Part shown: piece by piece, positions 28,804-41,293 of the stretch
How the letters are laid out: each line of letters starts with the position of its first letter
Position numbering within the stretch: the stretch's first letter is position 1
Source of the DNA: Bryobacterales bacterium
GTDB lineage: Bacteria > Acidobacteriota > Terriglobia > Bryobacterales > Bryobacteraceae
NCBI GenBank assembly: GCA_947446025.1
Contig: CANFEY010000037.1
Location: 1 to 47,097, forward strand
Length of the DNA stretch: 47,097 nt
Reading direction: 5' to 3'
Notes under the pieces: model-generated
Databases searched by the model: none
What the model saw: only the letters and a program-made list of their open reading frames with translations
Told to the model about the DNA's origin: nothing
Translations under genes and position numbers: made by a program

Positions 28804-29409
28804 GTGGCAGCTGTTATCACCAGGCTGGAATCGGCCGATTTGAGAACGATGCGGGAAACTCCAGGCACACGTTTCGATGCGGCTCCGTTGTCCCCCGGTG
28901 GACAGGCGGAGTTGCAGAACCGTTTTGTGCAGGAAAATATGCGCCGCGTGTTCTTGCTGATTTACCGCATGGTGCGCAACGTGGATGACGCGCAGGATCT
29001 GACGCAGGAAGCTTTCATCAAGGCGCTACAGCGGCAGGATCAACTAAAGGACCTGGAAAAGGCCACGCACTGGCTCTCGCGCATTGCGACGAACACCGCC
29101 ATCGATTTTCTGCGGCGGTCCGGCCGGGTGAATTTTTCGGACATTGAAGACGCGCCGCCGGCCGCGCTGCGGTCGCATGCGGAGAGCGCGGAACAGCGCG
29201 TGCTGCGCGCGGAGCATCGGCAGCATCTGGAAGCGGGGCTGGACGTATTGACCGGGCGGGAACGGCTCGCGCTGCTGTTGCGGGATGTGGAAGATATGCC
29301 GGCGGAGGAAGTCGCGGACCGGCTGGGATGTTCGAAGGCAACAGTGCGTTCGCACATCGCCAACGCGCGGGTAAAGCTGCGGCGCTTCATGAAGCGGGGT
29401 GTAGCATGA
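28804..29409 (+). CDS. ECF-type RNA polymerase sigma factor
   Basis: A 201-residue sigma-70 family protein of ECF type. Region 2 is seen at about residues 40-105 (R-V-F-L-L-I-Y-R-M-V-R-N, D-D-A-Q-D-L-T-Q-E-A-F), region 4 at about 140-195 (L-T-G-R-E-R-L-A-L-L-L-R-D-V, then the helix-turn-helix L-G-C-S-K-A-T-V-R-S-H-I). The GTG start at 28804 adds about 15 poorly conserved residues; ATG 28849 (M-R-E-T-P) is an alternative. It overlaps the anti-sigma gene (ATGA at 29406-29409), so it is probably held in check by it. Confidence 0.93.
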   Translation: MAAVITRLESADLRTMRETPGTRFDAAPLSPGGQAELQNRFVQENMRRVFLLIYRMVRNVDDAQDLTQEAFIKALQRQDQLKDLEKATHWLSRIATNTAIDFLRRSGRVNFSDIEDAPPAALRSHAESAEQRVLRAEHRQHLEAGLDVLTGRERLALLLRDVEDMPAEEVADRLGCSKATVRSHIANARVKLRRFMKRGVA

Positions 29410-29978
29410 GCACGCATCCTTTCGAGACCGAGCTGGCGCTGTATGCGGGCGGCGACTTGCGGGGCTGGGAGCGTTTCCAGACCGCGCTGCATGTTCGCGG
29501 CTGCCAGAGTTGCCAGGGTAAGATCACGGCGTTCCGGCAGGATCAGGAAGAACTGCGCGCGTCGGTGGATGAATTGCCCGCGGGCTTAAACTTTGCCAGA
29601 CTGGCGGCGGAGATGGCGGCGAATATCCGCGTGGGTCTGGAGGCGGGCGAGTGCGTGGCTCCCGTGGTCCGCGAGCCGGTTTCTCCGATTTGGAACTGGA
29701 AACCTGCGGCGGCGTTCGCGGGGCTGGTCATGGTGTTCGGGGCGGCTTGGTGGCTGAATATGCCGGCGCTGAATATCGGGTCCAGCGAAGACCGCGGGCC
29801 CGTGCTGGAAGCATCCTATGAGGGCGTTGAGTTCCGCGAGAACGGCAGCGGACTGGGCGTGAGCAGTAGCGGGGCGGAGCCGGTGGCCACGTCGGTGAGT
29901 TTCGGCGGATCGGCCAGCGCGCGCTATGTGGACGGTGACACGGGCCAGGTGACCATCACGACGGTGTACGTGCAATGA
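29406..29978 (+). CDS. Membrane-anchored zinc-finger-type anti-sigma factor
   Basis: A 190-residue protein that overlaps the ECF sigma gene. The N-terminal part has H-V-R-G-C-Q-S-C (residues 29-36), the H-x3-C-x2-C signature of ZAS anti-sigma factors. One transmembrane helix is predicted at about residues 100-120 (A-F-A-G-L-V-M-V-F-G-A-A-W-W-L). The ~70 C-terminal residues would be periplasmic, with no recognised domain. It should sequester the sigma factor at the inner membrane. It also overlaps the third gene by ATGA. The upstream open frame is a sigma-gene shadow. Confidence 0.87.
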   Translation: MSTHPFETELALYAGGDLRGWERFQTALHVRGCQSCQGKITAFRQDQEELRASVDELPAGLNFARLAAEMAANIRVGLEAGECVAPVVREPVSPIWNWKPAAAFAGLVMVFGAAWWLNMPALNIGSSEDRGPVLEASYEGVEFRENGSGLGVSSSGAEPVATSVSFGGSASARYVDGDTGQVTITTVYVQ

Positions 29979-31027
29979 AGCAGCTTCTTCTAGTTTTTAC
30001 GGTGGCGGTGGCGCTGTATGCGCAGTCTGTGTCTGGCAAGATCGACCTGCCGACGGATTCGCCCGTGGCTGTGCTTTCCGCTGATTTCAGCAACTCCAAG
30101 GCGACGGCACGCGGCGGGGCGTATGTGGTGGACGTGTACGCGTCGCTCTCTTTGCGCAATACGACGCAGCGGCGCATCCGGGGGATCACGCTGGCGGTGT
30201 ATGCTCAGGACACTGCGCCGGGTAAGGGATCAGTTTCCGTGCCGAGTTTGGATGTGGCTCCGGGAGCGGCCTTTTCGGTGCGCATTGAGAACCACTTGGT
30301 GCGGCCGCTTGGTTCCAGCAATCCGGGCGTAGAGGTGAAACTCGACGGGGTGTTGTTTGACGATTTGGGTTTCTATGGGCCTGATACTCTGCAATCGCAG
30401 CGCTTGATGACCAAGTGGGAACTGGAAGCCCGGCGCGACCGCGACTACTTCAAGTCCGTGCTGAAGGCGTCCGGCGTGGACGGTTTGCGCAAGGAGATGC
30501 TGGCCGGCATCGCGCGGCAGGCAGGCAGCCGGGGGCCCGGAGTGCAGATGGTGCGGGGCCGGGCCACCAATCAGGATGCCGAGCGCGAGGTGCAGTTCGC
30601 TTCACTGGCGATGCCCGATGCACCCGTGGAAGTAGGCGATGGCGCGGCCCGCGTTACAGCGAGCGAAGCACGCGCGCCGCGCTTTTCCGTGCGCAACCGC
30701 TCCGCCAAAGCGGTGGAGCATCTGGAGATCGGCTGGATTGTGAAAGATCAGCAAGGCCGCGAGTTCTACGCTGCCTCCATGCCGGTGGATCTGAAGTTGG
30801 CTCCGAATCAGGCCGGGGACGTGCGCCAGGATGCTTCGTTACGCTTCCAGCAACCGGTGGCGATCCAGAGCATGACGGCTTTCGTGGCCAGCGTGGGGTT
30901 TGCCGGAGGCGGGCAATGGGTACCGAAGCGCAACGCTCTGGTCCCGGCGTCGCCTGAGGAGCAGCGGCTGCTGCAGATTTACAGCAAGCGCGGCGTGGAA
31001 GCGCTGGTGGAAGAACTGAAGAAGTAG
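29975..31027 (+). CDS. Exported protein coupled to sigma/anti-sigma pair, unknown
   Basis: A 350-residue protein with a signal peptide (residues 1-16, ending L-Y-A-Q) and no family I can name. The mature part has two beta-rich regions (about 25-130 and 215-310) in which phrases such as L-S-L-R-N-T-T-Q-R-R-I-R-G-I-T and F-S-V-R-N-R-S-A-K-A-V-E-H-L-E suggest Ig-like or FxLYD-like folds, separated by a charged helical section. The C-terminal end is K-R-G-V-E-A-L-V-E-E-L-K-K. It overlaps the anti-sigma gene and may be its extracytoplasmic ligand or an effector. This is inference from operon position. Confidence 0.75.
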   Translation: MKQLLLVFTVAVALYAQSVSGKIDLPTDSPVAVLSADFSNSKATARGGAYVVDVYASLSLRNTTQRRIRGITLAVYAQDTAPGKGSVSVPSLDVAPGAAFSVRIENHLVRPLGSSNPGVEVKLDGVLFDDLGFYGPDTLQSQRLMTKWELEARRDRDYFKSVLKASGVDGLRKEMLAGIARQAGSRGPGVQMVRGRATNQDAEREVQFASLAMPDAPVEVGDGAARVTASEARAPRFSVRNRSAKAVEHLEIGWIVKDQQGREFYAASMPVDLKLAPNQAGDVRQDASLRFQQPVAIQSMTAFVASVGFAGGGQWVPKRNALVPASPEEQRLLQIYSKRGVEALVEELKK

Positions 31028-31079: not shown

Positions 31080-31880
31080 CTACTTGGTGCGACCGGCGGC
31101 TTTGTTCATATGGCCGGGGTCAGGGTTGTTTTCGATGCACTCGTACTCTTCCACGCGCACCTCAATGGGACGGCGGAAGACGGCTCCCGTGTAGTACGGC
31201 TTCTCCAGCGCTTCTTTGTCTTCCACCATGGTCTCAAAGCTCAAAGACCCGTCCGTGTTCAGGGTGTAGCGCTCCACTACGTGCATGGATTCTGAGTGAA
31301 TGGACGCGCCGCCGGCGATCCAGCTTTTGTCGTTGAAGCCGATGGTGTCTACAACAAACGTGTCGCCTTCCCAGCGGCCTACCGAATCGCCCATCCAGGT
31401 GGGCACCAGGTCGTCGGGGTGCTGGAGTTTCGCATCGATGGGAATACGGCGCCACGCGCGGAATGCCTCGTGCAGGATCACGACTTGCTTGGGCGTCTGC
31501 ACGATTTCGAGCGGCATCGGCATGGTGGAGATGCGGGGCACTCCGGGCAGCAGGCAGTAGAGCGTGGGATCGTCGAGCGCGGCGTCGAGTGGTTTGCGCT
31601 TGGCCTCCCAGTCCGGCTTGTAGGCTAACGGTTCGCGGCGGATCGGATGGTTGTCGATGGGCGGCAGAGGGTGCAGCGGGGGCGCGCCCGCCTCACCGTT
31701 GATGCTGACGCCGCCGCTTTGCCAGACGCCGCTGAGATCGGGCTTGCCGTTGGCGGCTCGCGGAATGGGGCGGCGGACTACCTGCGGGCCTTTGGCTTTC
31801 GTCTGGCCCTTCGCTTGGCCCCAGAGCGGTGCGGACAGGCAAACAGCCGCGATCGCGAATGGAAGAACTCGTGCGGTCAT
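31080..31880 (-). CDS. Exported GxWEGDT-domain protein, unknown function
   Basis: A 266-residue exported protein (signal peptide residues 1-22, M-T-A-R-V-L-P-F-A-I-A-A-V). Its core, G-R-W-E-G-D-T-F-V-V-D-T-I-G-F-N, is shared with the proteins at 36360-37160 and 37572-38687, and an upstream P-D-L-S-G-V-W occupies the place of their P-R-W-P-D-G segment. The downstream H-S-E-S-M-H-V-V-E-R-Y motif also matches. I know no biochemical role; conserved Glu, Asp, His and Trp could make a carbohydrate- or phenolic-binding site. It begins two bases after the DUF6152 gene, so the two are co-transcribed. The long open 5' extension overlaps DUF6152 and is a shadow. Confidence 0.8.
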   Translation of the reverse strand: MTARVLPFAIAAVCLSAPLWGQAKGQTKAKGPQVVRRPIPRAANGKPDLSGVWQSGGVSINGEAGAPPLHPLPPIDNHPIRREPLAYKPDWEAKRKPLDAALDDPTLYCLLPGVPRISTMPMPLEIVQTPKQVVILHEAFRAWRRIPIDAKLQHPDDLVPTWMGDSVGRWEGDTFVVDTIGFNDKSWIAGGASIHSESMHVVERYTLNTDGSLSFETMVEDKEALEKPYYTGAVFRRPIEVRVEEYECIENNPDPGHMNKAAGRTK

Positions 31881-31882
31881 GG

Positions 31883-32254
31883 CTACTGCCCCACCGGGCC
31901 AAGGAACTTCTTGGTCCCATCCGTGAAAGTGACTTCGCGCCCGGCACCGCTGTTGGAGCCGTCCTTGGCCTTGTAAGCCGTGACAGTGATGGTGGACCCG
32001 ACCTTGAGGATGTCGCGCGGGAAGCCTGTGCGTTTGAGGGTGTTTGGCGGGTAGCCCTCCAGCGACCATGTAGTTACTTTGCCGGTGGCGTCGGTCACGT
32101 CGACGTGCACGTAGGCGTGCGGATTGGTCCATTCCACCTTGCTGACCTTGCCGGTTACGGTGATCATCGTCTTTGAATCGTACTCCGCCGCAAAGGAGTG
32201 GTGTGCGTGTGCGGGAATGCTAGCGGCCAGGATTGCCAGAAGGATGTAGCGCAT
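31883..32254 (-). CDS. DUF6152-family exported protein
   Basis: A 123-residue small exported protein. Signal peptide to about residue 17, then the family hallmark A-H-H-S-F-A-A-E-Y-D at the mature N-terminus, followed by G-K-V-S-K-V-E-W-T-N-P-H-A-Y-V and G-S-T-I-T-V-T-A. The fold reads as a small beta-barrel. The function of DUF6152 is unknown to me; the invariant N-terminal histidines suggest metal binding. The start at 32252-32254 lies only five bases beyond a strong hairpin and lacks a good Shine-Dalgarno. It is closely linked to the G-x-W-E-G-D-T protein downstream. Confidence 0.85.
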   Translation of the reverse strand: MRYILLAILAASIPAHAHHSFAAEYDSKTMITVTGKVSKVEWTNPHAYVHVDVTDATGKVTTWSLEGYPPNTLKRTGFPRDILKVGSTITVTAYKAKDGSNSGAGREVTFTDGTKKFLGPVGQ

Positions 32255-32259
32255 AGAAG

Positions 32260-32295
32260 AAGCCCCGGCGAGTATCGTAACGCGCGCCGGGGCTT
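32260..32295 (-). terminator. Strong hairpin at the end of the receptor gene
   Basis: A perfect 11-bp inverted repeat, AAGCCCCGGCG (32260-32270) and CGCCGGGGCTT (32285-32295), loop 14 bases, lies 25 bases after the receptor stop. On the minus strand it is followed by CTTCT, a weak T-rich tail. It should separate the receptor transcript from the DUF6152 unit, or reduce read-through. Confidence 0.65.
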
Positions 32296-32320
32296 GGGGT
32301 CAATACTGCGAGACTTCGTT

Positions 32321-35300
32321 TTAGAAGTCGAAACGCATGTTCAAGGTAACCGTTCGGTTACCAGCCGCGGTAGTGATACGGTTGAACGTTTGGGGGTTGT
32401 TGATGTTGGTTCCAGGATTGCCCCAGATCGGGCGGTTCAGCGCGTCGATCACGTCGGCGCGAAGTGTGAAGTAGCGCGCTTCGCCGAGTTGAATCTTCTT
32501 GCTGGCCGAGATGTCGAAGCCCAGCTGGCCCGGTCCAATCAACCCCGGCATGTTGTTCGCCGAGTTGCCCGCGCGGCCCGGGAGCGCGTTCGCGAGAAGA
32601 ACATTTCCCGAGGCGTCCACGACCACCTGATTCGTCAAACGGCCATTGAGGACCGTCTGGTCGGCACCGAAATTGGGTGGGGTAGCATTGCGAGCGGTGA
32701 GGCCGGCAAAGTAGTCCACGTACTGGCCAGGATCCTTCCGTACAGACCCGGGAGTAAACTCGCCCAGGATATCTGCAGTGGTGATCGCGCGGAATCCCGC
32801 CGTCCCGACGCCGGTGGTAAAGGTAAGCGGCGCGCCCGAGGCCCACTGGATCACCGGAGCCAACTGCCAGCCGCCGATGATGGGGTCAGCCCACTTCGCG
32901 TTGCGGGCGATGTAGCCCTTGGCACCGAAGGGCAAGTCCCAGGTTCCCGCTAACTTGATGATATGAGTGCGGTTATTAGCCAGGATGCCCTTACTCAGGA
33001 CACGGTTGCGGGGATCGCGCACGCCCGTGTCGCCCAGGTTCTTGGAGAACACGTAGCTGAACTGGCCGCTGAAGCCGGTAGCATAGCGGCGTGTGAGGCT
33101 GGTCTGCACCGAATGATAGGTGGAGTTCGAATTGTTGCCCGCCAAATTCACACTGCCGAACTGCGGGTTGGCCACGATGAAGTTCTCCGGCAGTCCGGCG
33201 TTGCGGAGGATTCCCCCAAAGCCGCGCGTGGACAACTGTGTGGTGGTGTTAATGTAGTTCGCCAATCCGCCGACATCTCCGTTGGCGATAAATTGATTGG
33301 TGTTCTGGAACAGGCGGAGCGCCCGCGAACCTGTCATCGTGGACCCATTGACCGTGCCGATCGTCCCGCCAAAGTTCGTTCCCGCGAACATCCGGTCGAA
33401 CAGCGGGGCATTGCCGCCGGCGCGCGTGATATTGAAGGCTTCCAGAAGGCCGTTTTCGATGATGTTAGTTTCGTTGATCTGCGTGTTGGTCCATAGCTTG
33501 GTGCCCTTGTTGCCCACCCAGCCGACTTCCAGCGTGAGGTTGCGGGCCACTTCATGCTGCAAGCTGAGGTTGAAGCTTTGGATATAGGGAACCTTGCGAT
33601 CGTCCGCGTAACCGGTGATGCCGGTGGACCGCGTAGAATCGAGCGGCACCGGCGAAAACGGCTTCGCGCCGCCGGTGGGCACCGGTACGACGCCCGCGGC
33701 GGGCAGGCCCGCCAGATCCAAGTATCCCTGAGCCGCGTAGTTCAGGTTCAGCGCGAATCCCGGCAAGCTGCCGATGTTGCCCGAGTAACCCAGGAAGTCC
33801 ACCGCACCCGCATAGTTGATTCCGTATCCGCCGCGCAGTACAGTCGAGCGCTTCAGCCACGGCACATTGTAGGCGAATCCGAGCGACGGGGCCAGGTTGT
33901 TCCAATCGTTACCAAAGATCAGCTTGTCCGCATTCGGCGAAAACTTCCCGACGAATTCCGAGGTGGTCAGCGCTCCGCTGCTCGCGTAAGGGGCCCATTG
34001 CGCGTTCGCAAAATTGGTGCCGGAGATACCGAATAAGCCCGATTGTCCGCCCTTGAAACGACCGCCCAAACCGAGCGAATCGTACGGGGTGCCGTACTTG
34101 TCATAGCGCAAGCCGAAGTTCAAGGTCAGGTTTTTGGTCGTCTTCCAGCTATCCTTCAGCCAGAAGTTCCAATCGTTCTGCTGATGCTTGCGCCGGAACA
34201 GAATCGTGGTGCGATAGTCGGACCAATCCGTCGCTGTCGGGCTATTCACGAAATACTGCTGTCCGATGGTCCCCACGGAACCGGCCAGGTTGGCAAGCAG
34301 GCTCTGCGCCGGACCAATATCAAGAGCGTTCAGTCCAGGGAACGCCGCCGCAGTAATGCCGGTGATCGCAACGCTGCCCGCACCCAAGGTAACCAGCGGA
34401 CGAGTCGTATTCTGTCCGCCGCCGTTGAGGCCTTCCGAAAAGAAGCGATCCAGCTCGCCGCCGAATTGCACGGAGTGTGCGCCGTGATTCCAGGTGATGG
34501 TGTCGGCAATCTGCTTCAACGGGCTGTTGGTGTAGCGCGGCGTCGAAACGTTCAGGTTCGCGTACTGGCCCAAACCCAGACCACCCGAGGCAATATATTG
34601 GAAACTTCCATCCGGCCCCTTTGGATAGGTTGCGCGCGCTTCTTTCGCCGCATCCGTGAGGTTACTCTCGGCGGCGCCGAAACAGCAGCCGGTATCAAAA
34701 GCGGAAAGACCTTCCCAGGTATCGCGCTTCGCACCGAAACGGAATTCGTTCAGCAGGCTCGGTGAAAGTACGGTGGTGTATTGGATCGTATAGAAATTCG
34801 GCTTGCGCACTACCGCGCCGGAGTACCCACCCGGGAAGTCGGTCAAGCCTGTCTGCCCCGTCACGCCGAAGTCTTTTTCGCGCGTCATGGTGAAGCTCAG
34901 CTTGTTGGCGTCATTCACCTGATAATCGAAGCGGGTGGTGAGGTGGTCGCGATTGGGATTCGCACTCTGGCCCGTGGCGCCATCCACGCCGTATTGGCGG
35001 CGATACCAGCGGTACCCGGCGGTGTTCAACCCGTCGCCCACGCTGTAGTCGTTCGGAAGCGGCATACGCGGCAGCATCTGCGAACTGACCCACACATTGT
35101 CGATTTTGGTGCGGTTGGGATCGCGGACATCGGTGAAGACGTTAAATTGATTCAAGAAAAGCGAATTGCCAGCCGCGTCGCGCGAGAGAATATTGCCGGC
35201 TAAGTCCACGGAGGGCGTCCCGGAAAGCGCGTTGCCGTTGCGCCGGCTCACGCCGCCGGCGGCACCGGAGGTCAGATAACGGAACACACCGTTGCGCGCC

Positions 35301-36259
35301 GACTGGGTCAGCACGACCGAGGTGGTCAGGAGCTTCTCAACGTAGCGCTGATTGTCGATCAAGACCATGAAGAACGCCTTGTTCTTCACGATCGGCCCGC
35401 CCAGGCGTCCGCCGTACTGGTTGCGATTCGTGTAACTCTTCTGCGCGCCGCGCAGGTTCGCGAACCAATCGTTGGCGCTCAAAGCCGAGTTGTTGTTGCT
35501 GTAGAACAACGCCCCGTGATAGGCGTTGCTGCCCGCGCGTGTGCGCATCTGCACTTGCGCCGCGCCGCGGCCTTGCGCAGGGTCCACGGTGTTCGTGCTG
35601 ACGCGGACTTCTTCCACCATGTCTGGGCTGGTGAAGATCGCGGAGTAGGCACCGTTGGAATCGTTGTAGCGACCGTCGTTGGTGATTAGGCCGTCGCGGG
35701 TGGTGTTCACTTGGCCGGTGCTGGTGCCGGAGAAGTTGGGCACTTCCGCTCCGAAGGCGTTGCGTAGGGTGACGACACCGGGCGAGGTAGCCGCCAGATC
35801 CAGCACGTTGCGGCTGAGCACGGGCAGCGTCAGCACCGCGCGTTCCGAAATTACCGCGCCGACGGAGGCCGTGGTGGTGGTAAGCGTGGTGTCGGCTTCT
35901 TCGATGACCTCAATGGAGGTCGCCGCACCTTGCACCTGTAGCGTAAAGTTCAGGCGGACCTGTTGGCCCTGGCCCAATTCCACCTTGGTGAAGGTGGCGG
36001 TGTTGAAGCCGCTAGCGTTGGCGCTGACCGTATAGACGCCCGGCTGGAGGCTGGGAAACTCGTAATTGCCGGTATCGTTGGTTTCGCGGTTGTTGACAAT
36101 GCCGGTGTTGTCGTTGGTGGCGACAACCTTTACGTTGGCAATGACCGCTCCGGTGGCGTCGGCGACGGTGCCGCCGAGGACGGCGTTGACCTGGCCGAAC
36201 GCCGCGGGTGACAGGCACGCGGCTAGAAACAATCCTGAAATACGCTTAGAAAACGGCAT
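32321..36259 (-). CDS. Oar-like TonB-dependent receptor with N-terminal regulatory domain
   Basis: A 1312-residue outer-membrane receptor. Signal peptide 1-22 (A-A-C-L-S-P-A-A-F-G-Q); carboxypeptidase-regulatory-like beta domain about 25-110 (G-G-T-V-A-D-A-T-G-A-V-I, then G-N-Y-E-F-P-S-L-Q-P-G-V-Y); plug about 130-260 (L-P-V-L-S-R-N-V-L-D-L); the rest a large beta-barrel ending R-T-V-T-L-N-M-R-F-D-F with terminal Phe. Such Oar-like receptors are abundant in Solibacter-type acidobacteria; the ligand is unknown. ATG at 36257-36259 with GAGGAG upstream. It has its own promoter and is insulated by hairpins on both sides, within a cluster of exported proteins. Confidence 0.93.
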   Translation of the reverse strand: MPFSKRISGLFLAACLSPAAFGQVNAVLGGTVADATGAVIANVKVVATNDNTGIVNNRETNDTGNYEFPSLQPGVYTVSANASGFNTATFTKVELGQGQQVRLNFTLQVQGAATSIEVIEEADTTLTTTTASVGAVISERAVLTLPVLSRNVLDLAATSPGVVTLRNAFGAEVPNFSGTSTGQVNTTRDGLITNDGRYNDSNGAYSAIFTSPDMVEEVRVSTNTVDPAQGRGAAQVQMRTRAGSNAYHGALFYSNNNSALSANDWFANLRGAQKSYTNRNQYGGRLGGPIVKNKAFFMVLIDNQRYVEKLLTTSVVLTQSARNGVFRYLTSGAAGGVSRRNGNALSGTPSVDLAGNILSRDAAGNSLFLNQFNVFTDVRDPNRTKIDNVWVSSQMLPRMPLPNDYSVGDGLNTAGYRWYRRQYGVDGATGQSANPNRDHLTTRFDYQVNDANKLSFTMTREKDFGVTGQTGLTDFPGGYSGAVVRKPNFYTIQYTTVLSPSLLNEFRFGAKRDTWEGLSAFDTGCCFGAAESNLTDAAKEARATYPKGPDGSFQYIASGGLGLGQYANLNVSTPRYTNSPLKQIADTITWNHGAHSVQFGGELDRFFSEGLNGGGQNTTRPLVTLGAGSVAITGITAAAFPGLNALDIGPAQSLLANLAGSVGTIGQQYFVNSPTATDWSDYRTTILFRRKHQQNDWNFWLKDSWKTTKNLTLNFGLRYDKYGTPYDSLGLGGRFKGGQSGLFGISGTNFANAQWAPYASSGALTTSEFVGKFSPNADKLIFGNDWNNLAPSLGFAYNVPWLKRSTVLRGGYGINYAGAVDFLGYSGNIGSLPGFALNLNYAAQGYLDLAGLPAAGVVPVPTGGAKPFSPVPLDSTRSTGITGYADDRKVPYIQSFNLSLQHEVARNLTLEVGWVGNKGTKLWTNTQINETNIIENGLLEAFNITRAGGNAPLFDRMFAGTNFGGTIGTVNGSTMTGSRALRLFQNTNQFIANGDVGGLANYINTTTQLSTRGFGGILRNAGLPENFIVANPQFGSVNLAGNNSNSTYHSVQTSLTRRYATGFSGQFSYVFSKNLGDTGVRDPRNRVLSKGILANNRTHIIKLAGTWDLPFGAKGYIARNAKWADPIIGGWQLAPVIQWASGAPLTFTTGVGTAGFRAITTADILGEFTPGSVRKDPGQYVDYFAGLTARNATPPNFGADQTVLNGRLTNQVVVDASGNVLLANALPGRAGNSANNMPGLIGPGQLGFDISASKKIQLGEARYFTLRADVIDALNRPIWGNPGTNINNPQTFNRITTAAGNRTVTLNMRFDF

Positions 36260-36300
36260 ACGAGCTCCTCAACCCAAAGACCTAAAGAGACTTAAAAACA

Positions 36301-36329
36301 AGGATAGCCCATTGGCCGACCTGTGTCAA
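36301..36329 (-). promoter_or_regulatory. Vegetative-type promoter of the TonB receptor
   Basis: On the minus strand TTGACA (36329-36324), a 17-base spacer and TATCCT (36306-36301) match the sigma-70 consensus well. The predicted start near 36294 gives a leader of about 35 bases before the receptor ATG, with GAGGAG as ribosome site. Confidence 0.7.
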
Positions 36330-36337
36330 AAATTTGA

Positions 36338-36361
36338 AGCCCCAGGTTTACACCCGGGGCT
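36338..36361 (-). terminator. Hairpin with T-run after the upstream cluster operon
   Basis: On the minus strand AGCCCCGGG, loop TGTAAA, CCTGGGGCT (9 bp, one G-T pair), followed by TTCAAATTTTT. It begins within the stop codon of the 36360-37160 gene, so it is a good intrinsic terminator. A related palindrome lies at 40093-40119. Confidence 0.7.
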
Positions 36362-37160
36362 AGCGGTCGTCCTGGCAAATGTACTCGAACATTTCGCCGT
36401 TGGCGACAAAGCCCGCCGCGCCGGATTCATTGATCACGCCGCGGGCGGTCCAAGGGGCGGTGTAGGCTCCCGGATCATCCACCGTGATTTCGTATTCGAG
36501 CGAACCCAGCGTGGGGCGCGAGAATTTCTCCGTCAGATGCGCCTGCTCCGTGGTGGGGTAAGAACCCATGATCCAGACCTTCTCGTTGAGGCCCACTGTG
36601 TCCACCACCAGCGTGTCGCCTTCCCAGTGGCCGATGGAGTGGCCCAGCGAGGTGGGGCGCAGGTCTTCGGGCTTGGGATGCATCCGGCCATCGGTGTAGA
36701 TCACCCGCCAGGAATGCGCGCCGCCCATCTGTAGGATGAAGACGCTTTTGAGATCTGGCGCGTCGATAATTTCAAAGCCGGGGGCGAGCAGAAATTCGGG
36801 ACCCGGGGCAGGCTTGCAATCAATGTAGGGAGGCCGTGTGAGCTTTTGGCTCGACTGGCGGTAGGTGAACAACTCCTTGGCCCATGGCTGGAACGGGACG
36901 GTGCCCATGGGACGGCTGGCGAATCCCGGGCGCAGTTCCCAGTAGCCCTTGGCGTCCTTAGCTGCTCCCAGATTGACGCGGCCATCGGGCCAGCGAGGCG
37001 TGGGCAGCACGGGGCGGATCGGTTTGGGCGGAGCAGCTCCTTTTCCCTTGGCTCCGGCCTTTCCGGCGAGCGGGGCAGGCGGAGCATCCTGCGCGAGAAA
37101 CGGCACAGCCAACGAGAGGCAGGCCAAGCTGAGCGCCAGAGTGGGTAACGTTCGCGTCAT
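36360..37160 (-). CDS. Exported GHWEGDT-domain protein, unknown function
   Basis: A 266-residue exported protein (signal peptide to about residue 24, then an Ala/Gly/Lys/Pro linker 27-50). Shared family landmarks are P-R-W-P-D-G-R-V-N-L-G (about 56-66), F-Q-P-W-A-K, W-R-V-I-Y-T-D-G-R, and the core G-H-W-E-G-D-T-L-V-V-D-T-V-G-L-N, followed by T-V-D-D-P-G-A-Y-T-A-P-W-T. No function known to me. It follows a DUF6152 gene by eight bases and is the last gene before a terminator. The conserved Y-T-x-P-W-T tail suggests an aromatic binding surface; inference only. Confidence 0.8.
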   Translation of the reverse strand: MTRTLPTLALSLACLSLAVPFLAQDAPPAPLAGKAGAKGKGAAPPKPIRPVLPTPRWPDGRVNLGAAKDAKGYWELRPGFASRPMGTVPFQPWAKELFTYRQSSQKLTRPPYIDCKPAPGPEFLLAPGFEIIDAPDLKSVFILQMGGAHSWRVIYTDGRMHPKPEDLRPTSLGHSIGHWEGDTLVVDTVGLNEKVWIMGSYPTTEQAHLTEKFSRPTLGSLEYEITVDDPGAYTAPWTARGVINESGAAGFVANGEMFEYICQDDR

Positions 37161-37168
37161 CTTGGCTC

Positions 37169-37561
37169 CTAGCGCATCGTGAGCTTTGCGCCACTGGAGA
37201 GGATCAGCGTGGTGGAGTTCACCGCGCCCACCCAGTTGTTGCGCGGGTCCTTGGACAGCGCGCCGCCGGTGACGGTGATGGTGTCACCGATTTTCACGGT
37301 GCTCTTCGTCCAGCCGCCGCGCAGCAGCGCGTAGGGGGGGCCGAGTTCGAAGCGGATGTTCTTCGTCGCGCCGCCGGCGTCCTTCACGTTCGCATAGAGG
37401 TAGGCGTGCGGATTCTGCCAATCGAGCTGCGTCACCACGCCCGTGAAGTCGGCGATCTTGGAGGCGTCGTATTCGGCGTCGAAAGAGTGGTGGGCCCCTG
37501 CGGGCAGTACAAACAAGGTCGGTGCCACGCAGAGGATGAGGGCAAGCAGTGTGGTTCGCAT
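37169..37561 (-). CDS. DUF6152-family exported protein, second copy
   Basis: A 130-residue DUF6152 protein. Signal peptide about 1-23, mature N-terminus H-H-S-F-D-A-E-Y-D as in the first copy, then V-T-Q-L-D-W-Q-N-P-H-A-Y-L and G-D-T-I-T-V-T-G. The two copies in this window are clearly diverged paralogues. ATG at 37559-37561 with GGAG upstream (in AAGGAGAATTAC). It lies ten bases after the fusion gene and eight bases before the GHWEGDT gene, so all are in one operon. The histidine pair just after the cleavage site could bind a metal. Confidence 0.85.
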   Translation of the reverse strand: MRTTLLALILCVAPTLFVLPAGAHHSFDAEYDASKIADFTGVVTQLDWQNPHAYLYANVKDAGGATKNIRFELGPPYALLRGGWTKSTVKIGDTITVTGGALSKDPRNNWVGAVNSTTLILSSGAKLTMR

Positions 37562-37571
37562 GTAATTCTCC

Positions 37572-38687
37572 TTAGTTGCGGATGAAGGTCGATTCCGCGT
37601 TCTCCTCACAGAAATATTCCTGAATCTCTTCGTCCGGAACCCACTGGATGGTCCAGCCGCCGGTCCAGGGGCGCGTGTACGTCTTGGTGTCGTCCACGGT
37701 CACCTGGTAGCGCAATGTGTTGAGATCGGTGCGCGTGAAGCGCTCGGTCAGGTGCAGGGATTCGGTGTGCGGCAGGCCGCCGTTCGAAAACCAGAATTTT
37801 TCGTTGAAGCCGACGGTGTCGACGACCAGTGTGTCGCCTTCCCAATGACCAACCGAGGTGCCGTAATACGCCAGCACCAGATCCTCTTTGTTCCCCACCG
37901 GACGCCCGTCGGTGTAGACGATGCGCCAGTTGCGGTCGCCGCCGCCTAGCAGGATCAGTACGCGGCCCACTTCGGGCTGCTCCACGAACTGGAATCCTTG
38001 TGGGCTTTGAAAGTGGCGCACGCCGCCGGGAGGCATGCAGCGGTTGTAGGGATCGTCTTTGAAGAGCGTCCGCTGCCGGTATTCGTAGGCGGCCTTGGCC
38101 CAGGGCTGGAACGGAGCAACTTTGTCGGCGTCCAGGATGTTGTTGAGTAGTCCGTCGCGATTCATCGAGATGTTGCCGGCGGTGGAGTCGACCAGGACGG
38201 TGGAACTGGGTGGACCCCAGTAGCCCTTCTTGCCGGGAGGCGGGCCGAGCCGCACGTGTCCATCGGGCCAGCGGGGAGCAGGTTGGCTCTTGCCCTTGGC
38301 AGCGGCTTTGGCTTTGGCGGTGAACAGCTTCGCGCCGGTCTTCGCTAGCACAATGGAAGTGGCCAGGACCTGCCGCCGCGTGTCGCGGGCCGGGATGCCA
38401 TCCACGCTGACCACGTCGCCGATGTTGAGCGCGGTGCGCTTCCAGCCGTCTTTCTCAAGGTCCAGCGGGTTGCCGAATTCGACGGCCCAGTTGGCCACGG
38501 TTCCGTTGGCGTCCTGGATGTTGACGCTAAAGAAAGCGCTCGGCGTCACCCAATCGATGCGGGTGACCACGCCCTTCAGGCTCATCTTGCGACTGTTGTC
38601 GTAGGCCGCCGACGGCGCACGCTGCGCCCAGGCCGCACCCAGCAGCACGCCGAAACCCAACGCGGTGGCTAGCAGAAATCTCTTCAT
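37572..38687 (-). CDS. DUF6152-GHWEGDT fusion protein, exported
   Basis: A 371-residue exported protein that joins both domain types of the cluster. Signal peptide residues 1-21 (M-K-R-F-L-L-A-T-A-L-G-F-G-V). Residues ~25-120 are DUF6152-like (G-V-V-T-R-I-D-W-V-T-P, then G-D-V-V-S-V-D-G) but lack the H-H-S-F start, having A-P-S-A-A-Y-D instead. After a Lys/Ala linker (~122-137), residues ~138-371 carry P-R-W-P-D-G-H-V-R-L-G, W-R-I-V-Y-T-D-G-R, G-H-W-E-G-D-T-L-V-V-D-T-V-G-F-N and Y-T-R-P-W-T. The start at 38685-38687 gives a proper signal peptide; the open frame upstream is a shadow. It lies two bases from the 38690 gene. Confidence 0.82.
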   Translation of the reverse strand: MKRFLLATALGFGVLLGAAWAQRAPSAAYDNSRKMSLKGVVTRIDWVTPSAFFSVNIQDANGTVANWAVEFGNPLDLEKDGWKRTALNIGDVVSVDGIPARDTRRQVLATSIVLAKTGAKLFTAKAKAAAKGKSQPAPRWPDGHVRLGPPPGKKGYWGPPSSTVLVDSTAGNISMNRDGLLNNILDADKVAPFQPWAKAAYEYRQRTLFKDDPYNRCMPPGGVRHFQSPQGFQFVEQPEVGRVLILLGGGDRNWRIVYTDGRPVGNKEDLVLAYYGTSVGHWEGDTLVVDTVGFNEKFWFSNGGLPHTESLHLTERFTRTDLNTLRYQVTVDDTKTYTRPWTGGWTIQWVPDEEIQEYFCEENAESTFIRN

Positions 38688-38689
38688 CC

Positions 38690-39082
38690 CTAGTCCCTGG
38701 TCAACTTGAAGTTTCCGTTGACGGCGCCCTGCTTCCAGCTGCCGGTGACCGTGCGGTGATACGAGCCCATGTCTTCCATCTTGCCTTCCGCAACCAGATG
38801 GACAGGCTTGCCCGCCGCGTCCTTGACGTCGGCTTCGATGCGGACCATCCAATTCACGGGGTCCAGTGTCACCGCCGCGGTGGCGGAATCCGCCCCCGGG
38901 TTAATGACGCCCTTGGCAGCCTTGCCATCCCAGGTCATCACCACGGTGAGCTGGTGGCGGTCCGTGGGCGATGCGCCCCAGTCCCCATTCCAAGTCCCGG
39001 TCAGCGGATGCCCTTGCTGCGCGGGGATAGCCACGGTGATACATGCCAATAGAAAACCCAACTGGAACACACGTCTCCGCAT
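38690..39082 (-). CDS. Small exported lipocalin-like protein, first in cluster operon
   Basis: A 130-residue exported protein, family not recognised. Signal peptide 1-21 (ends V-A-I-P-A-Q). The mature chain starts H-P-L-T-G-T-W-N-G-D-W-G, a G-T-W motif as in small lipocalin-like barrels, followed by alternating strands and ending G-S-W-K-Q-G-A-V-N-G-N-F-K-L-T. It would be a small periplasmic or outer-membrane beta-barrel binding protein. GAGGAGG precedes the ATG at 39080-39082 by four bases. It heads a four-gene operon with the fusion protein, DUF6152 and GHWEGDT genes. Confidence 0.75.
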   Translation of the reverse strand: MRRRVFQLGFLLACITVAIPAQQGHPLTGTWNGDWGASPTDRHQLTVVMTWDGKAAKGVINPGADSATAAVTLDPVNWMVRIEADVKDAAGKPVHLVAEGKMEDMGSYHRTVTGSWKQGAVNGNFKLTRD

Positions 39083-40069: not shown

Positions 40070-41293
40070 ATGTGGGCACAGCTGCGTGTTTTGAGGCCCC
40101 AGGCTGACGCCTTGGGCTACCCCGTTCACCAGAGCGGGGCCCTCCTATGGCTGCTCGCTCTCTCGATGCCCCTTTGGGCGCATGACATCGCGGGCGACGT
40201 GAAGGTCCAGGCGTACTTGAAACCCGATGCGCAGACGATCCATCTGGTGCTGCGCGTGCCGCTGAAAGCGATGCGCGACATCGAGTTCCCGCAGCGCGGC
40301 AAGGGGTTCCTCGACGTAGAGCGAGCGGACAAGCAACTCCGCGACGCCGTGACCATGTGGATCGCCAGCGTGGTGGAGGTGTACGAGAACGACGCCCGCG
40401 TCGGCGCGCCGCGAATAGTTGGGGTGAAGGCGTCGCTCGAATCGGACCGGTCGTTTGTCGCTTATCGCGACGCACTTGCGCACATTACGGGCGAGACGAA
40501 ACCCATCGGCGACGTGCCGGTGGAGCAGGTGATGCTCGACGCAGTGCTCGAGTACCCCATCCGCTCGGAAGCATCGCAATTCTCTATCCGGCCCAAGCTG
40601 GAACGGCTCGGAATGAACGTGGTCACCGTGCTGTGGTTCCTACCCCCTTCGGGCACGGTGCGGGCATTCGAGTACAACGGCGACGCGGGCTTGGTTCGCC
40701 TCGATCCGAGTTGGCTGCAAGCGGCGCTAACCTTCGTGCGCCTGGGCTTCTTCCACATCCTGGACGGCATCGATCACCTGCTGTTCCTCTTCTGCCTACT
40801 CATCCCGTTTCGCAAGCTGCGGCAGTTGCTGTGGATCGTGACCAGCTTTACCGTCGCGCACTCGATTACACTGATCGCATCCGCGTTTAATTTGGCTCCC
40901 GGCGCGTTGTGGTTTCCACCGCTGATTGAAACGCTGATCGCGGCGTCCATCGTGTACATGGCGCTCGAAAACATCGTGGGGGGTGCGAGCGTCCATCGCC
41001 GCTGGATGATCAGCTTCGGCTTCGGGCTGGTACACGGCTTCGGGTTTTCGTTCGCGCTGCATGAGACGCTGCAATTTGCGGGATCGCATTTGGTGACCTC
41101 GCTGCTGGCATTCAACGTGGGCGTGGAATTGGGGCAGGTGCTGGTGCTGCTGGTGTTGGTTCCGGCCCTGGCGCTGCTGTTCCGCTACGCCGTCGCGGAG
41201 CGGATCGGCACGATCCTGCTTTCCGCACTCGTCGCGCACACCGGCTGGCACTGGATGTGGGAGCGTTGGGAGATCCTGCGGAAGTTTTGGTGA
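40070..41293 (+). CDS. HupE/UreJ-type membrane protein with exported N-domain
   Basis: A ~407-residue protein. After a signal-like segment (A-L-L-W-L-L-A-L-S-M-P-L-W-A-H), an exported domain of about 190 residues is followed by a HupE/UreJ_2-type membrane domain (about 210-405): F-F-H-I-L-D-G-I-D-H-L-L-F-L, A-H-S-I-T-L, F-G-L-V-H-G-F-G-F-S-F, F-N-V-G-V-E-L-G-Q, and a final H-T-G-W-H-W-M. The histidine-rich helices are typical of this family, linked to metal (nickel, cobalt) transport. Start is uncertain: ATG 40070 lies upstream of a palindromic repeat that would then be inside the gene; TTG 40112 is the next choice. Both precede the signal segment. Confidence 0.83.
   Translation: MWAQLRVLRPQADALGYPVHQSGALLWLLALSMPLWAHDIAGDVKVQAYLKPDAQTIHLVLRVPLKAMRDIEFPQRGKGFLDVERADKQLRDAVTMWIASVVEVYENDARVGAPRIVGVKASLESDRSFVAYRDALAHITGETKPIGDVPVEQVMLDAVLEYPIRSEASQFSIRPKLERLGMNVVTVLWFLPPSGTVRAFEYNGDAGLVRLDPSWLQAALTFVRLGFFHILDGIDHLLFLFCLLIPFRKLRQLLWIVTSFTVAHSITLIASAFNLAPGALWFPPLIETLIAASIVYMALENIVGGASVHRRWMISFGFGLVHGFGFSFALHETLQFAGSHLVTSLLAFNVGVELGQVLVLLVLVPALALLFRYAVAERIGTILLSALVAHTGWHWMWERWEILRKFW
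40093..40119 (+). repeat. Palindromic repeat related to the one at 36338
   Basis: GCCCCAGGC-TGAC-GCCTTGGGC, an imperfect 9-bp stem (eight of nine paired). It closely resembles the palindrome at 36338-36361 (GCCCCAGG-TTTACA-CCCGGGGC). This looks like a dispersed intergenic element, now overlapping the proposed 5' end of the HupE-like gene. Confidence 0.5.

Follow-up and report, generated by a model that had tools for sequence, protein, structure and literature searches.

Seven genes for exported proteins lie in a row on the minus strand, at positions 31080-39082, in a 47,097-nucleotide stretch of a Bryobacterales genome (contig CANFEY010000037.1 of assembly GCA_947446025.1; the whole stretch is called the window below). 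The conserved unit of this cluster is a pair of small genes, one for a DUF6152 protein (PF19649, hereafter D) and one for a protein of the GxWEGDT family (hereafter G, a family for which no Pfam model exists), and not the large outer-membrane receptor in their midst. D is very probably an N-terminal-histidine metalloprotein, with a predicted metal-binding histidine probably exposed at its tip. We hold it about evenly balanced that the pair belongs to a periplasmic metal-handling module (probably for copper), which by analogy would resemble CopC/CopD and in which the D-G part has been multiplied.

A conserved pair of exported proteins

An earlier sequence-only reading of the window had described seven exported genes built around the receptor. 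The row on one strand was borne out, and all seven N-termini show a hydrophobic stretch and an AxA-type site in a hydropathy check (signal peptides and cleavage sites were judged by hydropathy and sequence rules). The family assignments held as well: PF19649 matches D1, D2 and a D-G fusion (F) with 110.5, 77.6 and 75.4 bits (cut-off 27), and G1, G2 and the C-terminus of F share an alignment with 52 invariant columns. The repeated order of D then G, also pointed out in that reading, occurs three times in the window (in F, D2/G2 and D1/G1) and is general elsewhere too.

In the window's genome (4.43 Mb, 120 contigs), we found 52 matches to DUF6152 and 100 to G, a few of them partial. A same-strand G lay within 600 bp of D in 38 of the 52 cases, when circular shifts gave a mean of 1.1 and a maximum of 6 in 400 shifts, and at 36 of 46 further D loci G was either fused to D or encoded on the same strand no more than 400 bp away. 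The pairing of D and G is thus far beyond chance. G1, G2 and the C-terminus of F matched no Pfam or NCBIfam family, none of the 103 members of the G family matched Pfam, and no PDB relative of G was found by sequence; for D, the best PDB match had an E value of 0.24, nothing convincing.

The same association was observed across genomes. D was detected in 52 of 120 genomes of the order and G in 53, with no D genome lacking G (Fisher 2e-33, kinship not corrected for); the sole G-only genome rests on a weak match (1.1e-4). In a phylum sample of 149 genomes that includes the window's own, D was found in 12; per-genome copy numbers from both surveys are lower bounds. The collection was scanned for G with the closer alignment set, the wide G alignment being too diverse, and the operon-neighbour scan covered 81 proteins of 95 neighbours, with 14 short open reading frames (ORFs) left out.

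Gene order is conserved at the individual loci. In the window, D1 (31883..32254, minus strand) is separated by 2 bp from G1 (31080..31880, minus strand; 266 aa). Close orthologs of G1 were recovered at 12 loci (57-84% identity), and D1 stands directly before the G1 ortholog in all 11 that have upstream sequence; the remaining locus, L053, is cut upstream of G1. A bin labelled Bordetella parapertussis metagenome (L049, L061) holds close relatives of the window genes, with L049 84% identical to G1, and this label is very probably wrong. The other four small genes, with gaps of only 2-10 bp, are lip (38690..39082), F (37572..38687; 371 aa), D2 (37169..37561) and G2 (36360..37160), all on the minus strand. 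Mechanical ORF calling had given longer starts for two genes; these were corrected to 38687 for F and to 31880 for G1. The exported 130-aa protein lip, which opens this conserved four-gene module, had been called lipocalin-like, a label that finds no Pfam or NCBIfam family match. The lip-F-D-G order was identical in all nine loci with F orthologs of 62-68% identity. Beyond these nine, only four additional fusion loci were fetched, three with all four genes and one without lip; a lip homolog occupies the same place in 12 of the 13 fetched module loci, and the genome of the window has two more copies of lip-F-D-G. Two exported units, lip/F/D2/G2 and D1/G1, thus stand independently of each other in the window. 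Genomes of the ortholog, fusion and low-copy locus sets overlap in part, and the loci are not all independent. The earlier interpretation held up in part: D and G co-occur in conserved order, but the receptor is no conserved neighbour.

The receptor (T; 32321..36259, minus strand; 1312 aa) carries CarboxypepD_reg (PF13620, 7e-20) and OMP_b-brl_4 (PF25183, 3e-122) domains, an architecture that agrees with the Oar-like type named in the earlier reading. That reading had T presumably importing a ligand which the small proteins bind or process; T would then be the centre of a system for nutrient uptake that works like SusC with its accessory proteins. At the 13 other loci of the lip/fusion/D/G module, no receptor adjoins the module (0/13), and 10 large unlabelled ORFs scanned near modules all belonged to other families, none of them a receptor. 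Likewise, no receptor adjoins the pair at the 12 D1/G1 ortholog loci, where a receptor-like ORF (24-30% identity) lies 1.3-1.9 kb off in four (L051, L052, L054 and L057). As in SusCD and Oar-like systems, an Oar-like OMP_b-brl_4 receptor has exported proteins nearby; unlike in SusCD, there is no SusD-type partner (none among the six small proteins in Pfam and NCBIfam scans) and the receptor is not a conserved neighbour of the module. Uptake through T is, on the other hand, favoured by the orthologs of this receptor (53-76% identity), four of five of which have D/G genes upstream, two directly adjacent, these genes being different paralogs (the five are L252-L256; contig ends truncate L257 and L258, and L259 reaches only 38% identity). 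In Croceibacterium too, the receptor comes after D-D-G. Genome-wide, 9 of the 61 receptor loci (75 match rows merged by hand) had a D/G gene on their strand at 600 bp or less vs 3.2 expected, with 3/400 shifts as high. The signal was lower at 300 bp (7/61, 25/400 shifts as high) and when unextended receptor matches were rerun (7/61 at 800 bp, 49/1000 as high), and there was none within 5 kb on either strand (105/400 shifts as high). An earlier null with independent random placement had given chance level, 14 of 61 receptors within 3 kb vs 19; we took the circular-shift null as the better one. Receptor proximity to D/G is only weakly beyond chance.

T also shows apparent expression signals of its own, a further point against its being the centre. 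It is preceded by a 100-bp gap, with a T-tailed hairpin (stem 36361-36338, minus strand; z -3.5) and a sigma-70-like promoter, TTGACA-17-TATCCT (36329-36301, minus strand; 10/12 consensus match), upstream of it, and is followed by a 66-bp gap before D1 with a hairpin that is a possible terminator (32260..32320, minus strand; z -2.4). Because gaps are short within lip/F/D2/G2 and D1/G1, and longer around T with hairpins and a promoter match, the cluster probably forms three transcription units; this reading is weak because neither the promoter scan (3 vs 1.5 in shuffles) nor the terminator scan (7 vs 8.8) was clearly above shuffles. With no adjoining receptor at the other module loci and only modest genome-wide enrichment, we downgraded the receptor-centred system and regard it as improbable; T is better described as a loosely associated neighbour, and the evidence speaks for a metal site in D sooner than for small proteins that serve the receptor's ligand. 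At another locus (G000:C19:38622-64451), six Oar-like receptors stand in tandem, with two DUF6152 genes flanking them.

The histidine site of D

In D1, the signal peptide ends in AHA and the mature chain is predicted to begin with HHSF, H18, H19 and H46 becoming His1, His2 and His29; D2 reads AGA and then HHSF, with both this motif and the internal NPH motif intact. We counted 203 distinct D domains (identical cores counted once, for this count only; the partial D of L076 was left out), of which 193 have His-His at the predicted signal-peptidase site. In these 193, the residue at -1 is Ala (185), Gly (7) or Ser (1) and that at -3 is always A, V, L, I, M, T or S. The internal histidine of the NPH motif is present in all 193, and in 5 of the 10 domains without His-His (Fisher 9e-8, uncorrected). 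When 43 of the 52 D matches of the window's genome were fetched and read, 42 had His-His after a small residue and 42 had the internal histidine, the single exception to both being the window fusion, in which Gln-Arg replaces His-His and TPS replaces NPH. All 10 domains without His-His are this fusion and its nine orthologs, and the D2 beside these fusions retains both motifs. A histidine right after the predicted signal-peptidase site, a mark of N-terminal-histidine (histidine-brace) metalloproteins, is found in D1 and D2 and not in the window fusion. In G proteins, the likely cleavage Ala is followed not by His but, in 79 of 103, by Gln (G1 is misaligned at this column).

In a tree computed from the G columns, the loss of His-His maps to a single event (clade support 100/100), and within that clade the internal histidine shows at least four changes, a number that is unsure as inner branches are poorly resolved. 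D26, G35, W42, P45, W63, P70, L73, G77 and G86 were kept in all 10 domains, and S20, R75 and D98 were relaxed, D98 being found in 101 of 129 domains elsewhere vs 2 of 10 here; D98 may be a further metal ligand. Because most other conserved positions of D are kept, the pattern looks like selective relaxation of the site, not general decay. A different explanation would be that His-His at +1 is a processing, protein-interaction or haem-contact motif, which would suit the joint relaxation of S20 (beside His-His) and R75. We judge this unlikely: where His-His is lost, one distant histidine and D98 relax with it while most conserved positions stay, and a +1 histidine is, in the accessible text of PMC12537917, the signature of several metalloprotein families.

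These families provide the closest precedents. CopC, DUF1775, DUF4198, DUF6702 and Ang-1/2 have an N-terminal histidine and bind, or are reported to bind, copper or nickel, and a +1 histidine is present in 79% of DUF4198, 65% of DUF6702 and 100% of Ang-1/2 (accessible text of PMC12537917 and PMC8424229; the percentages from the former). By this precedent the metal of D would likely be copper or nickel. As portrayed there, the signal-strapping families (DUF4198, DUF6702, Ang-1 and Ang-2; PMC12537917) and DUF1775/YcnI (PMC8424229) resemble D in being exported domains of unknown function with a mature N-terminal histidine, and in occurring together with membrane metal-transport proteins or as fusions to them. 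D differs from the signal-strapping families in its +1 histidine frequency (193/203), its G partner and its huge multiplication; the main text of PMC12537917, which covers four other families, names neither DUF6152 nor PF19649. N-terminal-histidine metalloproteins are known as a kind; D-G would be a variant of greater complexity, since D has a partner from a family that neither Pfam nor NCBIfam matches.

That partner has conserved features of its own. G proteins share a nearly invariant polar set (E203, D221, R144, E245 and H195) and a probable C109-C248 disulfide. G1 has C109, C248, H195, E203 and D221, and the G domain of F retains C109, R144, W170, H195, E203, D221 and C248. In G2, H195 is replaced by Thr, and all 10 G2 orthologs, the window's included, have Thr or Asn at this position; all 16 fusions retain H195. 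Losses within one module are complementary, the fusion D lacking its histidines and G2 lacking H195, each beside an intact partner, and this is conserved in orthologs. By sequence, the two halves of the module look specialised in complementary ways.

A proposed membrane partner and the possible function of the pair

In low-copy genomes, D and G mostly have a third companion. DUF6644 genes were found within 2 kb of D/G at 13 of 16 such loci, as two genes in 12 of the 13, and the three loci without them are from the window's genus. Beside three low-copy modules (L209, L216 and L217) we also observed genes resembling the DUF1549/DUF1501 type, possible redox partners. On alphaproteobacterial plasmids (16 records with D, of which 7 regions were read, including 2 of the 8 from Azospirillum), DUF6644 lay within 3 kb of D in six of the seven regions, and all 11 plasmid D domains had His-His and the internal histidine. 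In the window's genome, 4 of 16 DUF6644 genes lie within 800 bp of D (null 0.19). An alignment of 43 DUF6644 sequences shows H36, K106, W152 and R160, among others, to be invariant; 7 of the 43 match Pfam CopD at E values up to 0.1 (best 1e-4) and 14 match DUF2214 (best 8e-5). For D itself, some of the 65 proteins scanned gave weak matches to OB-fold families (18 to tRNA_anti-codon, best 3e-4, and 14 to tRNA_anti_2). The family listings for D1, D2 and the fusion do not contain the CopC profile, nor do the 25 most-matched of 44 families in the 65 D proteins.

What the sequences show is the D-G unit (its gene order, how regularly the two co-occur and how far they have expanded), the place of His-His at the predicted cleavage site, the loss of His29 along with it, and the link to DUF6644. 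From these we infer a mechanism of metal binding and transfer. After export, cleavage of D would leave His1-His2 at the head of the mature chain. These two and the NPH His29 (mature D1 numbering) would make up a histidine-brace-like site on a small, OB-like beta domain, where a transition metal would bind, with Cu(II) the likeliest. G would be a dedicated exported partner that either takes the metal from D or acts on a ligand beside its metal site. The basic module would include DUF6644, small multi-helix membrane proteins that usually come as a tandem pair and are weakly similar to CopD, and D with DUF6644 would capture and transfer metal at the inner membrane as CopC/CopD do. In the window's lineage, the D-G part was amplified, reaching about 50 D and 100 G per genome, for the most part with no DUF6644 alongside, and some copies became fused; in the clade of the window fusion, the D half lost the putative metal site, which the adjacent D2 kept. 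The receptor would be an optional neighbour with its own apparent expression signals, perhaps importing metal complexes or substrates through the outer membrane. Compared with CopC/CopD (including YcnJ fusions), D is similarly small and exported, with a mature N-terminal histidine and an internal one, and its partner DUF6644 is a multi-helix membrane protein weakly resembling CopD; unlike CopC, D has His-His rather than a single histidine and looks OB-like, DUF6644 mostly occurs as two genes in tandem, nothing in CopC/CopD corresponds to G, and there are some 50 copies.

Several observations weigh against this reading. In the domains without His-His the change is not confined to histidines; these domains are all one clade with poorly supported inner branches and a single loss, and because the losses fall in a single clade, the association of His-His with the internal histidine rests on few events. 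Weak matches of D also include the unrelated Usher and CBM26 (9/65 each). Both Azospirillum regions have D and DUF6644 and lack G, which indicates that G is not needed everywhere (two G queries matched no Azospirillum plasmid, where D matched eight). In the window's genome the only match to CopD (PF05425), on a DUF6644 gene, has 22.1 bits vs a cut-off of 32.1. DUF6644 is found within 2 kb of D/G at only 4 of 41 loci in this genome, at 3 of 80 loci in the G-ortholog scan and at none of the 13 fusion-module loci, and most multiplied D-G pairs therefore do without it. Finally, the copy number is odd for a plain metal carrier.

That copy number (52 D and 100 G matches in one 4.4-Mb genome) is one point in favour of catalysis. 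The pairs could be secreted two-subunit metalloenzymes in which copper is bound by D and the substrate by G, with each pair oxidising a different soil compound; multiplication would then reflect substrate range, as with lytic polysaccharide monooxygenases (LPMOs). D shares the histidine-brace-like signature of LPMO-type copper enzymes and differs from them in having no family match. G is divergent and yet keeps its conserved polar set, and single neighbourhoods hold tannase, dienelactone hydrolase and DUF1592-type cytochromes. These neighbourhoods had hinted at a link to pyrroloquinoline quinone (PQQ) dehydrogenases and periplasmic oxidation, which was rejected genome-wide for PQQ proteins, the one oxidation-linked enzyme family covered by this test: within 800 bp, 1 of 47 lay near G (null 1.55) and 0 of 47 near D (null 0.84). 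Moreover, the companion of D in the low-copy module is a membrane protein, the two Azospirillum regions keep D and DUF6644 without G, and G matches no Pfam family. For the multiplied pairs we accordingly favour metal handling over catalysis, which we see as possible and distinctly less likely. Its boldest form is more doubtful still: the pairs would be secreted copper enzymes of a new, two-subunit class, with D as the His-His/His copper centre and G as the substrate-binding half, diversified into dozens of pairs per genome that attack different soil organic compounds while a CopD-like DUF6644 supplies copper or electrons.

Two very numerous families of one genome are at stake here, one a DUF and the other without Pfam or NCBIfam match, and if metal handling is correct, a single soil bacterium could have as many as about 150 of its genes assigned to metal biology. 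The combination of an N-terminal His-His with a distant histidine, an almost obligate exported partner and a pair of CopD-like membrane proteins makes this reading concretely and cheaply testable. In the open-access literature (most subscription papers being outside its scope), we found no paper for DUF6152, PF19649, DUF6644 or the string WEGDTL, nor any on acidobacteria and the histidine brace, and the accessible text of a paper on Solibacter paralogues (PMC3174227) makes no mention of the D or G families.

Genes around the cluster

About 1 kb from the cluster, on the plus strand at 40070-41293, lies a gene for a HupE/UreJ_2 membrane protein (PF13795, 1e-41), which had no BLAST match in the 13 other module loci. 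Its exported-looking N-terminal domain would start with HDIAG after LWA, the architecture of the copper-binding 'anglerases' in the accessible text of PMC12537917. The window's genome also holds about 47 PQQ beta-propeller proteins (84 match rows merged by hand), another large expansion, whose positions are not linked to D/G. DUF1592-type cytochrome proteins were seen near D/G at L012, L049 and L157. At 28804-31027 on the plus strand, end-to-end with the cluster, are genes for an ECF-like sigma factor, a 350-aa protein and a protein that weakly resembles anti-sigma factors (match below the cut-off). The D1/G1 ortholog at L050 likewise has relatives of the last two nearby.

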